Below are positions 46,970-53,574 of a stretch of DNA of 64,000 nucleotides, piece by piece. Origin of the DNA: Agromyces intestinalis (GTDB lineage Bacteria > Actinomycetota > Actinomycetes > Actinomycetales > Microbacteriaceae); NCBI RefSeq assembly GCF_008365295.1, contig NZ_CP043505.1, forward strand, positions 3,348,001 to 3,412,000, written 5' to 3'. Both the position numbers and the translations under genes were made by a program. The notes under the pieces were generated by a model. That model ran no database searches. It was not told where the DNA came from and saw only the letters and a program-made list of their open reading frames with translations. The stretch's first letter is position 1. Each line of letters starts with the position of its first letter.

Positions 46970-48575
<1,606 letters not shown>

Positions 48576-48727: not shown

Positions 48728-50140
48728 ATGATGCGAGTACGCAGGGACGTGGCGAGTCTGACGCTCGGCGACCGGGATGCCGCAGAGACCGAGCCGTGGC
48801 ATCCGGTGCTCGATGCGTACGCCCGCGGTGTGCGGGCCATGCAGGACCTCGACGACCCCGACGACCCCGTGCCTGCCTCGTGGATGTGGGCGGCGAACAC
48901 CCACGGCATCGACCAGTTCACGCGGCGACGGCCGGCATGGGCGCAGTGCGCGCACGGGTCGCTGTTCTTCCTGCCGTGGCACCGCGCGTACCTCGCCTGG
49001 TTCGAGCGCACCGTTCGCGACCTGAGCGACGACGACGACTGGGCGCTGCCGTACTGGGACTATTCGCACCCCGACTCCGATCGCACGCTGCCGGTCGAGT
49101 TCGCGGTCGAGCAGCGCACGGTCGATGGGGCGCTCGTCGACAACCCGCTGTTCTCGCCAGGACGCTCGACACGGCCGATCCCCGCCGGCGACGCCGACAT
49201 CGTCGAGGCGCTCGCCCAGCCGAGGTACGTGCGCGAGGGCGAGCCCGGGTTCGGCGGCGCGCTGCCCGACCGGTTCTTCGGCACCGTCGAGGACCGCCCG
49301 CACAACTATGTGCACATGGCGATCAGCGGGCTGATGCGGTCGCCGGCGACCGCGGGTCGCGACCCGATCTTCTGGCTGCACCATGCGAACATCGACCGGC
49401 TTTGGGAGGTGTGGCGCTTGCTCGACGGGTCGGTGCCGCTCACCGACCCGGGCGTCGTGCCAGGCCAGGTGCGGTCGGCGTGGGAGTCGGCGACGTTCTG
49501 GTTCGGCGACGAGCAGCGCCCCGAGACGTACGCGATGGACGCGGTCGAGGATCTCGAGCACGAGCAGATGGGCTACCTGTACGAGTCGGTCGAACTCGTC
49601 GAGCCGCTCGCCGCGGAGGTCGCAGAGCGACGCGCGGCGATCCTCGCCGCCGAGGACGGGGGGATCGGCTTGGACGAGGCGGCAAGATGGACGCCCGTGG
49701 CCGCGACGTTCGACCTACCGTCGGGCGAGGCCAGGGAGATCCCCTTCGAGGGGGGCCCGCGTGGGCTCGACGCGGCACCGCCCACGCGGCTCATGCTCGA
49801 GCTCGCCGGTGCGACGGCGCGCGCCCCGCACGACGCCTACGACGTCGAGGTGCGCTCGGGGCCGGATGCCGCCCCTCACGTCGTGCGCGGGTTCTCGACC
49901 TTCGGACTCGAGGGCACCCCCGACGACGAGGTGCGCAACTACCTCGTCGATGCGTCGGCGGTGCTGTCCGACCTGCTCGACGAGGGGTGGGACGGCGGTG
50001 CGCTCACCGTGCGGCTGCTGCCCGCAGGCGAGGCCGAGGAGCGCCCGCCCGGTGAGCGCGGCCCGGGCGAGGATGAGCCGGGCCACGACGACCGCGCGAT
50101 CAACGTCGCGCAGGTGACGGTGTACGTGCAGGCGCCATGA
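48728..50140 (+). CDS. Tyrosinase / polyphenol oxidase (type-3 copper)
   Basis: A 470-residue di-copper oxidase. CuA ligands are His59 (NTHG), His76 and His85 (CAHGSLFFLPWHRAYLAWFE); CuB ligands are His192, His196 (PHNYVHMAISG) and a His in the pair 218-219 (RDPIFWLHHANIDRLW). Cys74 in CAH sits two residues before His76, the CxH thioether arrangement of fungal-type enzymes that Streptomyces tyrosinases lack. A C-terminal beta domain (about 335-470) resembles the shielding domain of polyphenol oxidase zymogens. No signal peptide. Its stop overlaps the PpoB2-like start by four bases. It oxidises phenols to quinones, perhaps for melanin. Confidence 0.9.
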   Translation: MMRVRRDVASLTLGDRDAAETEPWHPVLDAYARGVRAMQDLDDPDDPVPASWMWAANTHGIDQFTRRRPAWAQCAHGSLFFLPWHRAYLAWFERTVRDLSDDDDWALPYWDYSHPDSDRTLPVEFAVEQRTVDGALVDNPLFSPGRSTRPIPAGDADIVEALAQPRYVREGEPGFGGALPDRFFGTVEDRPHNYVHMAISGLMRSPATAGRDPIFWLHHANIDRLWEVWRLLDGSVPLTDPGVVPGQVRSAWESATFWFGDEQRPETYAMDAVEDLEHEQMGYLYESVELVEPLAAEVAERRAAILAAEDGGIGLDEAARWTPVAATFDLPSGEAREIPFEGGPRGLDAAPPTRLMLELAGATARAPHDAYDVEVRSGPDAAPHVVRGFSTFGLEGTPDDEVRNYLVDASAVLSDLLDEGWDGGALTVRLLPAGEAEERPPGERGPGEDEPGHDDRAINVAQVTVYVQAP

Positions 50141-50970
50141 GCGTCGAGGTCGGTCGGCTCGGGTACCGGCGCGGTGGGCCGCCGGGGCCGCTCGCCCGGG
50201 CACGGTCGACGCGGCGGCGGCGGCCGGCCCGTGCCGGCGACCTCGTGCTGGTCGGGTCGGGCGCGGCGTGGGTGGTGCTGGCCGCCGCGTCCCCGCTCGC
50301 TGGTCAGGGCTGGCCGGGTGCGCACCGACACGTCGCAACGGCATCGGATGCCTCGCCGGCTGCGGCCCCGGCAGCCCCCGTCGAGGTGTGGACGTGGGCC
50401 TGGCTCGCCGGCTGGCTGCTGATGGTCGCCGCGATGATGTGGCCGTTGCTCGCCGCCAGTGCGGACCGGATCGCCGCCGGGTCGTTCCGGCGCTGGCGGT
50501 TCGCGCTGCCCGCCGTCGCCGTCGGCACGGCCACCGCGCTGTGGCTCGGGTTCGGCCTCGCCGCGGGCACGGTCGCCCAGCTGGCGGCGGTGCCCGAGGG
50601 CAGTCTCCGGTGGCAGCTCGCCGCGCTCGCCGTGGCCGCGCTCGCCCGGCGGTCGGCATGGCGGGCACGGCTGCTCAGCCGGTGCGCGGTCGCACCCCCG
50701 GTCGCACCCGCTGGGAGGCGCGGCATCCTGACCGCGGCCCGAGCCGGTGCGACCGAATGGCGACGCTGTGCACTGCTCTGCGGGCCGCTGATGGTTGCGA
50801 TGGTGGTCGGGCACAGCCCGATCGTGCTCGCGGCGGCGAGTCTCGCGGTGTGGTGGGAGGCGAGACATCCGCGCGCGTGGCGCGACCCGGTGCCGCTCGC
50901 GCTCATCATCGTCGCCGGGATCGGCGCGGTCGGCGAGGTCGTGATCGGTGGGGGTGCGGTCGGCGCATGA
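50137..50970 (+). CDS. DUF2182/PpoB2-like metal-binding membrane protein
   Basis: A 277-residue membrane protein with about seven spans. It shows the DUF2182 marks LLMVAAMMWPLLAASADRIAAG near residue 95 and GATEWRRCALLCGPLMVAMVVGHSPIVLAAASL near the end (paired Cys, Met-rich helix). An HRH sits at residues 63-65. In Marinomonas mediterranea, PpoB2 of this family is a copper chaperone needed for its neighbouring tyrosinase PpoB1. The same pairing here, by an ATGA overlap, supports copper delivery to the enzyme encoded just upstream. Confidence 0.8.
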   Translation: MSVEVGRLGYRRGGPPGPLARARSTRRRRPARAGDLVLVGSGAAWVVLAAASPLAGQGWPGAHRHVATASDASPAAAPAAPVEVWTWAWLAGWLLMVAAMMWPLLAASADRIAAGSFRRWRFALPAVAVGTATALWLGFGLAAGTVAQLAAVPEGSLRWQLAALAVAALARRSAWRARLLSRCAVAPPVAPAGRRGILTAARAGATEWRRCALLCGPLMVAMVVGHSPIVLAAASLAVWWEARHPRAWRDPVPLALIIVAGIGAVGEVVIGGGAVGA

Positions 50971-52748
50971 CCGGATCTGCGTCGATGACGGCCGCGCCGA
51001 CCGCGACGGTGCCGCTGCTCATCCAGGACGGCACCGTCGACCTGGGCGAGCGGGCGGGTACGCCGGTGCCGGGGAGCGAGTCGCGCCGGCTCACGCTGCC
51101 CGTGGGCGCGAACGACCGGTTCCTCGACGGGCCGGCGTGCCGCCGGCTCGCGGTCGTCGACTTCGACCCCGAGACCGGCGCCCCACAGCCGCCGCCGGCG
51201 ACCTTCGAAGCGGCGCGCACGGGTGGCGGGCTGCGTGGCACGTACCCCGGCGATGGCGAGGCCGACTCCGCGACGGCGCTCGCGGTGAACGCGTTCGGCA
51301 TCGCGCTGCAGACCATCCGCATGTTCGAGGGCGCCGACGCGCTCGGCCGCGAGGTGCGCTGGGCGTTCGGCGGCGAGCAACTGCTCATCGTGCCGCGTGC
51401 CGGGGAGCGTGCGAACGCCTACTACGACCGCGCGACCCGCAGTCTGCAGTTCTTCTCGTTCACGGGCACGTCCGGTGCCCGTGTGCACACGGCGCTCAGC
51501 CGCGACATCGTGGCCCACGAGTGCGGTCACGCGCTGCTCGACGCCGTGCAGCCGTCGCTCTACGACCGCAAGACGCGCGAGTCCCAGGCGATCCACGAGG
51601 CCGTCGCCGACGTGATCGCCGTGCTCATGGCGCTCGACAGCGACCGACTGCGCACGAGCGTGCTGGCCCGCTCGGGCAACCGCCTCGCCGGCGCGAACGC
51701 GTTCAGCGCGATCGCCGAGCAGTTCGGCATGGCCAAGCCGAGCGCCGACGGCATCGCCCGCCGCGCACTGCGCGACCTCGACAGCCGTCGCACGCTCGCC
51801 GACCTCGCTGACGCGTCGCCGCACGAGCTCAGCACCGTGCTGTCGTCGATCTTCTACGACACGCTCTGCGCGGTGTTCGAGACGCGCTTCGCGCGCGAGC
51901 GCGACCCGCGACGCGCCGACGGGAGGCCGCCCTTGCGACCGGCGGCGGCGGCGAACAAGGCGCTCGGAACGGCACACGTGATCTTCCGCCGGTTCGTGCT
52001 GCGCGGCATCGACTACCTGCCGCCCGGCGCGCTCGCGTTCGCCGACGTGGGTCGGGCCACGCTCGCGGCCGACCGCGCGATCGGGGCGGACCGGCCGGTG
52101 CCGGACGAGGTGGTCGAGCGTCGCGAGCGGTTCGCGCAGCGGTTCGTCGACCGGGGGATCGCGCCGTCGACCGACGTGCTCGACGCGCCGCGCCCCGCGG
52201 CGCTCGATGTGCCGCCCGAAGGGCTCGCCGGTCTGCGCGACAGCGACTACCTCGCGTACGAGTACGTGGGGCGCCATCGGGCCGAGATCGGCATCCCCGA
52301 CGGTGTGCCGTTCACGGTGCTGCCGCGCATCGACGCGACGAAGCGGGTCGGCCCGGTCGGGCTGCCGCCGCAACGGGAGCTGCTGCTGAAGGTGGGATGG
52401 GAAGCGGCGGCGGATGCCTCGGGCGCGGGCCGTGCGGCCCGGCCGGTGCCGACCGGGGTGACGCTGAGCCTGCGCTGGGACGACGGCCGATGCCTCGCGC
52501 TCGTGCGCGGCGAGCGGGCGCGGATCGCCGCGAGTGACGAACCGGGCGGCGCCGACGAACCGGGCGGCATCGATGAACTGGACGACGCGCCGCTGCCGGC
52601 CTCCGACAGCCCCGGATCCCGCGCGTCCGACGACCTCGGGCGCTTCCCGCCGGTGCCGGGCCGAGCGCTCGCGCCCCCGCCGCCCGGCGTCGACCCCGGC
52701 GCGTTCTTCGACCTCGTCAAGGCCCGCAGCGGACTCCGTCGCAGCTGA
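50967..52748 (+). CDS. Gluzincin metallopeptidase of unknown subfamily
   Basis: A 593-residue protein with HECGH at residues 184-188 and a third zinc ligand Glu211 in AIHEAVADVIAVLMAL, the gluzincin (thermolysin-like) layout. The context HECGHALLDAVQPSLYDRKTRESQAIHEAVAD is close to the M4 arrangement in which the protein is opened by a beta hairpin (GERANAYYDRATRSLQFF). No signal peptide or membrane span. The C-terminal 170 residues are unlike known peptidases and end in an acidic, Pro-rich tail. ATG 50967 overlaps the PpoB2-like stop. A role in maturing the tyrosinase by cutting its C-terminal domain is plausible but unproven. Confidence 0.72.
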   Translation: MTGSASMTAAPTATVPLLIQDGTVDLGERAGTPVPGSESRRLTLPVGANDRFLDGPACRRLAVVDFDPETGAPQPPPATFEAARTGGGLRGTYPGDGEADSATALAVNAFGIALQTIRMFEGADALGREVRWAFGGEQLLIVPRAGERANAYYDRATRSLQFFSFTGTSGARVHTALSRDIVAHECGHALLDAVQPSLYDRKTRESQAIHEAVADVIAVLMALDSDRLRTSVLARSGNRLAGANAFSAIAEQFGMAKPSADGIARRALRDLDSRRTLADLADASPHELSTVLSSIFYDTLCAVFETRFARERDPRRADGRPPLRPAAAANKALGTAHVIFRRFVLRGIDYLPPGALAFADVGRATLAADRAIGADRPVPDEVVERRERFAQRFVDRGIAPSTDVLDAPRPAALDVPPEGLAGLRDSDYLAYEYVGRHRAEIGIPDGVPFTVLPRIDATKRVGPVGLPPQRELLLKVGWEAAADASGAGRAARPVPTGVTLSLRWDDGRCLALVRGERARIAASDEPGGADEPGGIDELDDAPLPASDSPGSRASDDLGRFPPVPGRALAPPPPGVDPGAFFDLVKARSGLRRS

Positions 52749-52773: not shown

Positions 52774-53574
52774 ATGCCCACTCCGTTGCAGGTCGAGATC
52801 GCCGTCCAAGACGCCGCCGGTGCACGCATCGCGCTCGCCGCGGGCGCCGCGCGTGTCGAGCTCTGCCAGGCGCTCGGGCTCGGCGGCCTCACCCCGTCGG
52901 CGGGGCTCGTGGCCGCGGCGGTCGAGGCCGCCGCGGCGGTGCGGGTCGCTGGTTTCGTGCACGTGCTCGTGCGCCCGCGCGGCGGCGGATTCGTGTACGA
53001 CGCCGACGAAGCCGATCTGATCGAGCGCGACATCCGCGAGTGCGTCCGGCTCGGCGCCGACGGCGTCGTGATCGGTGCACTCGAGGCATCCGGTGGCGTC
53101 GATCTCGACCTCATCGCGCGCTTCGTGGACGCGGCGGGCGACCTGGAGGTCACGGTGCACCGCGCGGTGGATGCCGCGACCGACCCGGTCGCAGCGGTCG
53201 CGTCGCTCGCCGGCACGGGTGTTCGCCGCGTGCTCACCTCGGGCGGCGCCGCCGACTGCCGGTCGGGGCTCGACGGGCTCGCGGCGATGCGCGCGGCGGT
53301 AGGCGACGGGCTCGAGGTGATGGCCGGCGGCGGCCTGCGCATCGACGACGTCGCCGTGCTCGCCCGACTCGGCCTGGATGCCGTGCACCTCTCAGCGCGC
53401 CGGCAGGTCGTCGCGGGCGCGAGCGGACCCGGTGGCGGCGTCGACGGCTACGACGCGACCGACGCCGGACTCGTCGCGGCCGCGGTCGCGGCGGCCCGTG
53501 CGGCGCGTGCTTCGTCTGCGGCCGTGGTCGCGATCGGCGAGGAGCACGCGACCCCGGCGTCGACCGCTCGCTAG
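52774..53574 (+). CDS. cutC: CutC-family (copper homeostasis) protein
   Basis: A 266-residue TIM-barrel protein. It begins MPTPLQVEIAVQDAAGARIALAAGAARVELCQALGLGGLTPSAGL, the family signature with the conserved Cys, and continues VHVLVRPRGGGFVYDADE, VTVHRAVDAATDP, RVLTSGGAADCRSGLDGL and LEVMAGGGLR. CutC is linked to copper tolerance, though its direct enzymatic role is debated. It follows the tyrosinase operon at 25 bases with its own leaderless promoter, adding a second copper gene to this block. Confidence 0.9.
   Translation: MPTPLQVEIAVQDAAGARIALAAGAARVELCQALGLGGLTPSAGLVAAAVEAAAAVRVAGFVHVLVRPRGGGFVYDADEADLIERDIRECVRLGADGVVIGALEASGGVDLDLIARFVDAAGDLEVTVHRAVDAATDPVAAVASLAGTGVRRVLTSGGAADCRSGLDGLAAMRAAVGDGLEVMAGGGLRIDDVAVLARLGLDAVHLSARRQVVAGASGPGGGVDGYDATDAGLVAAAVAAARAARASSAAVVAIGEEHATPASTAR

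Follow-up and report, generated by a model that had tools for sequence, protein, structure and literature searches.

The 64,000-nucleotide stretch of Agromyces intestinalis contig NZ_CP043505.1 analysed here (the window, to whose positions all coordinates refer) contains a PpoB2-tyrosinase operon that appears to have taken over the protease of a protease-MBL module, a new arrangement in which the acquired enzyme possibly serves to activate a phenol oxidase. Three genes, all on the forward strand (48728-50140, 50137-50970 and 50967-52748), encode a tyrosinase, a PpoB2-type protein and a metallopeptidase, and both junctions are ATGA overlaps, one at either end of the PpoB2 gene, as the original prediction had described. 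The features considered are:

47547..48575, forward strand: ilvC, upstream border of the insertion, outside the unit
48728..50140, forward strand: tyrosinase (type-3 copper), 470 aa, PF00264 with E=8e-34
49688..50137, forward strand: predicted C-terminal lid domain of the tyrosinase, with the putative placeholder F392 at 49901-49903
50137..50970, forward strand: PpoB2-type (COG5486) membrane copper chaperone, 277 aa, PF09948
50967..52748, forward strand: M4-like gluzincin metallopeptidase, 593 aa, recognised by HECGH, E211 and its fold
51516-51530, forward strand: HECGH (H184-H188), the HExxH motif of the peptidase
51597-51599, forward strand: E211, the downstream Glu of the peptidase, in HEAVAD
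52593..52745, forward strand: C-terminal tail of the peptidase, homologous to an MBL insertion by alignment to the MBL protein of a Microbacterium MAG (L042)
52677-52727, forward strand: tail motif PPPGVDPGAFFDLVKAR, homologous to the insertion motif of the MBL partner
52774..53574, forward strand: cutC, downstream border of the insertion, outside the unit

The six copper-binding histidines of the tyrosinase (H59, H76, H85, H192, H196 and H219) and C74 of its CxH motif were found to be invariant among 36 relatives, and the expected C-terminal beta domain was recovered in an AlphaFold2 model with a mean pLDDT of 91. Its best fold matches were HcTyr1 (8b74), the Ralstonia TYR (7xio) and latent plant PPOs. 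No signal peptide was apparent on inspection of the N-termini of the tyrosinase and the peptidase. The second gene matches PF09948 with 31.7 bits, passing the curated cut-off of 28.7 by 3 bits, which upholds the PpoB2-like identity proposed for it, though not strongly, and gives the tyrosinase-then-PF09948 order of a PpoB2-tyrosinase operon; conserved Met, Cys and His columns correspond to C183, C211, H226, M96, M100, M101, M219 and M222. Such pairing is widespread, with PpoB2 adjoining the tyrosinase in 55 of 69 tyrosinase loci on the genome contigs surveyed, and dependence of tyrosinase copper loading on PpoB2 is known only from Marinomonas (PMC2855505).

The tyrosinase of the window is probably of the latent, lidded type. 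The profile of its C-domain matches a single solved protein, HcTyr1 (8b74, E 4e-16), and in this alignment F392, part of an invariant FG pair, falls on Phe397, the placeholder residue over the HcTyr1 active site (PMC11609597), so that both a C-terminal lid and a placeholder residue can be predicted for the window protein. HcTyr1 processes itself slowly without a protease, gaining about ten-fold in activity (PMC11609597). The lid is present throughout this tyrosinase family, hence most lid-bearing tyrosinases must do without the peptidase described here. Sequence comparison with relatives revealed no cleavage site specific to peptidase-bearing tyrosinases, whose linker was not clearly distinct from that of two tyrosinases without the trio peptidase (L043 and L044).

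The product of the third gene carries HExxH residues and an E211 that are invariant among 12 relatives, and below E=0.001 Foldseek returned only M4 and M36 proteases, which bears out its original description as a gluzincin; motif, downstream Glu and fold together place it with the thermolysin-like gluzincins of clan MA(E). It remained below the cut-off of every Pfam family (13.0 bits against 22.4 for M4, PF01447), and its assignment as an ordinary Pfam M4 member was rejected in favour of M4-like by fold. Its AlphaFold2 model is moderate (pLDDT 69), and no PADLOC model was found for either the peptidase or the tyrosinase.

The gene order of the trio is conserved in 5 of 60 genomes of the soil bacteria Agromyces, in Nocardioides and in one Microbacterium MAG, and the arrangement is therefore not due to chance. 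The same five Agromyces genomes hold both a close peptidase orthologue and a tyrosinase of the trio type; eight further peptidase relatives with about 32% identity occur in seven other genomes of the genus lacking the trio. In L137, L138, L142 and L144, which lack the trio, ilvC directly adjoins cutC, and cutC is found in 43 of the 60 genomes, mostly without the trio, so that, on genomic comparison, the trio is an accessory insertion between these two genes. The copper-related cutC, 26 bp downstream, was considered as a fourth member and ruled out as a conserved chromosomal gene. The ilvC-cutC gap is also an insertion hotspot for other cargo in Agromyces, where other genomes encode either a large, apparently secreted protein or one of about 630 aa with a Tat-like signal (L028 10822-14277, L029 1868-5362 and L139 3-3275; also L140, L141 and L143).

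Survey of its relatives indicates that the peptidase is not tyrosinase-specific by origin. Full-length family members with readable context adjoin an MBL-fold gene, Agromyces trios excepted, in loci from other Microbacteriaceae, Nocardioides, Microbacterium, an Acidimicrobiales MAG, Rhizobium plasmids and 15 Rhizobiaceae loci, most of them without any tyrosinase; shorter and more distant relatives (L044, L132-L135) have no adjacent MBL gene. An MBL gene is present beside the 31 relatives analysed and absent beside the peptidase in the window and the other Agromyces trios. The family is evidently co-inherited with its MBL-fold partner (31 pairs; Mantel r=0.914 between the distance matrices, 0 of 5000 permutations as high). 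A phylum-wide search found the peptidase in 3 of 397 genomes, and the family survey thus draws mostly on the genus, the Rhizobiaceae and plasmids. The idea of a self-contained unit with a dedicated protease does not survive at the family level, where the peptidase is widespread without a tyrosinase and paired with MBL proteins; exclusivity does hold for a subclade of eight (support 100/100), all of whose members have tyrosinase and PpoB2. This subclade is nested in a 12-row clade (100/99) whose remaining members have an MBL gene and no tyrosinase.

The MBL partners match the PADLOC models LmuA, RTasMBL and Avs1a, and have a long insertion, with a conserved motif, ahead of their NN[TS]S motif. 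According to Tuck et al. (PMC12799240), insertions keep MBL nucleases of this type in a pro-enzyme state, and in Hachiman, AVAST and Canu these insertions are cleaved by a partner protease, either trypsin-like or a caspase. Further protease families are mentioned in the text consulted, where neither 'metalloprotease' nor 'metallopeptidase' appears. Since the partners are of this pro-nuclease kind and a gluzincin lies beside them, the gluzincin-MBL pair would represent a further protease class in the same scheme.

In Agromyces the peptidase is missing the final stretch of the C-terminus seen in its Nocardioides and Microbacterium relatives and has an MBL-insertion-like segment there instead, a homology to a different protein that the original prediction had overlooked. 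Peptidase residues 543-593 align with residues 217-267 of the L042 MBL protein with a score of 114, whereas none of 300 shuffled versions scored above 54 (z=15). All Agromyces copies share the motif PPPGVDPGAFFDLV[KR]AR, and the tail is identical or near-identical across orthologues. Within the loci examined for it, the motif occurred in no proteins other than the peptidases of Agromyces and the MBL partners. In some other clades the MBL proteins have a related element, P.[GN][VI]....F..L...R, at the corresponding position. Purifying selection acts on the tail (pN/pS 0.27), while the linker preceding it evolves nearly freely (0.83). Nocardioides (L041, L045) and the Microbacterium MAG (L042) have the order tyrosinase-PpoB2-peptidase-MBL, which by these comparisons is ancestral, with the MBL gene lost in Agromyces, in agreement with the position of the eight-row subclade among MBL bearers. 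Homology and purifying selection together argue that the conserved insertion motif was retained as the peptidase's own C-terminus and kept in use in cis. The tail is disordered in the AlphaFold2 model (pLDDT about 25-45), which thus gives no support for cis docking.

Proteases recur beside tyrosinase-PpoB2 pairs, which, together with the lid and the wide occurrence of the pair, lends the original interpretation partial support. Gluzincins of the window type or their kin lie beside or near such pairs in six loci (L040, L041, L042, L044, L045 and L046) and, in convergent orientation, in the Rhizobiaceae genome L134; the window-type subclade accompanies them in three genera. An M4-like gluzincin was nevertheless found within a few genes at only about 7 of 55 tyrosinase-PpoB2 loci, and the association of HExxH...E proteins with the pair is accordingly not general, most pairs lacking such a peptidase. 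Protease-MBL pairs have a tyrosinase gene as neighbour in about four separate lineages. In Rhizobium gallicum (L112) the peptidase-MBL pair adjoins a divergent tyrosinase of another type and an SCO-type protein, and in Knoellia (L055) the order is subtilase, MBL (LmuA model, E=2e-38), tyrosinase, PpoB2 and, 28 bp further downstream, a protealysin-type M4 fused to emfourin. Ten S8 subtilase ORFs were located up to about 7 kb from tyrosinases, and seven of them lie no more than 500 bp from the tyrosinase-PpoB2 unit (from the tyrosinase alone in L104), in seven of the nine tyrosinase loci having an S8 match; by a rough binomial estimate this has a probability of about 1e-6 if an even spread over the flanks is assumed. 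Directly adjoining genes, too, belonged to S8 more often than to any other Pfam family (6 of 95), a count that is not blind because several gene calls were hand-corrected towards S8, the 500-bp distance being the fairer test.

Further proteases were observed near these genes. Mycobacterium sp. OAS707 has tyrosinase-PpoB2 followed by a PLD-family protein (PF13091) and an S8 subtilase (L047 9238-12058). An M43 pappalysin-like metalloprotease divergently adjoins the tyrosinase in Nocardioides (L041 2770-3735) and Geodermatophilus (L043 5828-6844), and L120 contains a related protein. On a Rhizobium phaseoli plasmid (L109 10087-13270) an S8-MBL pair related to that of Knoellia L055 forms a second protease-MBL pair near lipase-peptidase-MBL genes.

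Our tentative reading is that the trio forms an accessory cassette serving a cytosolic tyrosinase that is latent. PpoB2 would deliver copper to the tyrosinase, the role known for its Marinomonas counterpart, and the C-terminal lid with F392, by homology to HcTyr1, would hold the enzyme inactive. Activation would follow from cleavage of the lid or of its linker by the gluzincin, presumably acquired from a protease-MBL pro-nuclease module. The MBL-derived tail would probably act in cis, binding the peptidase as a regulator or pseudo-substrate. Activation of the tyrosinase by proteolysis is plausible, and we rate it slightly above the islet alternative considered next, because the subclade keeps tyrosinase and PpoB2 after loss of the nuclease and because other protease classes occupy the same place elsewhere. 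Several observations argue against it, namely the low number of loci with a gluzincin despite the family-wide lid, the slow self-activation of HcTyr1 (PMC11609597) and the similarity of the linker in relatives without the trio peptidase; co-location could, moreover, stem from a shared effector islet and not from an enzyme-substrate relation.

Along this last line, peptidase and tyrosinase could be two distinct cargoes on a mobile conflict or effector islet, in which the substrate of the peptidase was the lost MBL nuclease and is now perhaps another protein, tyrosinase-PpoB2 being exchangeable. We regard this as somewhat doubtful, yet a serious competitor. Exchangeable enzymes are indeed found next to the 34 peptidase-MBL loci (DUF2235-like in 8, patatin-like in 6, tyrosinase in 5, S1/P1-like in 4 and LCAT-lipase-like in 3), the trio is sporadic with an empty ilvC-cutC site in other genomes, and EACC1 and caspase genes occur in L045. 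Retention of tyrosinase and PpoB2 in all eight subclade members speaks against exchangeability, as does the purifying selection that still acts on the peptidase after MBL loss.

The surroundings of these loci contain other genes of note. Homologues of the L055 2088-3266 protein, which we recognised by eye and take to be a DUF2235-type hydrolase, without Pfam confirmation, lie convergently beside peptidase-MBL in 8 of 10 Microbacteriaceae loci (L007, L008, L009, L030, L031, L034, L035 and L036), and the L055 protein itself is near the Knoellia tyrosinase. In Nocardioides gansuensis (L045 3951-6549) an EACC1 protein (PF19953) and a caspase-domain protein (PF00656) are encoded just upstream of the tyrosinase. 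Microbacterium MAG WOFB02 (L042 3-6818) has a TcdB/SpvB/RHS-type protein (Pfam TcdB_toxin_midN, SpvB, RHS) and a partial upstream ORF directly upstream of tyrosinase-PpoB2-peptidase-MBL.

It is improbable that the trio is an ordinary melanin or phenol-oxidation operon in which the peptidase serves quality control or turnover of the tyrosinase or PpoB2. Marinomonas PpoB1-PpoB2 does make melanin (PMC2855505) and the gene overlaps suggest balanced expression, but the MBL-derived tail, the peptidase-MBL family and the other protease classes at the same place would be left unexplained. Loss of the MBL gene and replacement of part of the peptidase C-terminus might suggest that a protease-MBL defence module has left the peptidase behind as a decaying relic that no longer has a role; this is hardly credible given catalytic residues intact in all five Agromyces trio genomes and pN/pS values of 0.33 for the core and, as above, a still lower one for the tail.

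Returning to activation of the tyrosinase by the captured peptidase, a bolder and rather unlikely extension is a prophenoloxidase-like defence, in which a triggered cytosolic protease would free two co-encoded zymogens, an MBL nuclease from its gate and a tyrosinase from its lid, the quinones made by the latter being toxic within the cell. The Agromyces form would then be reduced, with the tyrosinase as sole effector and the gate peptide of the nuclease turned into the regulatory tail of the protease. Our literature search for links of tyrosinase with protease-MBL modules or phage defence found none, apart from Marinomonas PpoS, which co-regulates tyrosinase and CRISPR-Cas (PMC8523701).

If these readings are correct, M4-like gluzincins would be the third protease class of protease-gated MBL nuclease systems, tyrosinases would be linked for the first time in the searchable literature to protease-MBL modules, and bacterial latent tyrosinases would gain a candidate physiological activator. 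The MBL-derived tail, conserved after loss of its parent gene, offers a ready probe of substrate recognition by these proteases.

Among known systems, the Agromyces trio shares with Marinomonas mediterranea PpoB1-PpoB2 (COG5486, PF09948) the succession of a tyrosinase and a membrane copper chaperone of the PpoB2 family, whereas the Marinomonas operon as described has no protease (PMC2855505). With Hachiman HamM, AVAST Avs1a, Lamassu and Canu the likeness lies in the relatives of the peptidase, which adjoin same-family MBL proteins whose NN[TS]S is preceded by a long insertion; here, however, the protease is a standalone M4-like gluzincin and not a trypsin or caspase, and Agromyces has no MBL gene, only the insertion motif being left. 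A lid with a placeholder Phe over the type-3 copper site, predicted for the window tyrosinase, is shared with HcTyr1 (8b74) and latent plant PPOs, but HcTyr1 processes itself slowly, whereas the window tyrosinase has an adjoining peptidase gene; we know of no partner protease for HcTyr1. Protealysin-emfourin, an intracellular M4 with its inhibitor, appears in fused form downstream of PpoB2 in Knoellia, and the window peptidase differs from protealysin in belonging to another M4-like family and in having an MBL-derived tail in place of emfourin. The insect prophenoloxidase cascade is comparable by analogy only, in that a latent phenol oxidase is possibly activated by proteolysis; the proteases are not homologous, and an immune role for the bacterial trio is conjectural.
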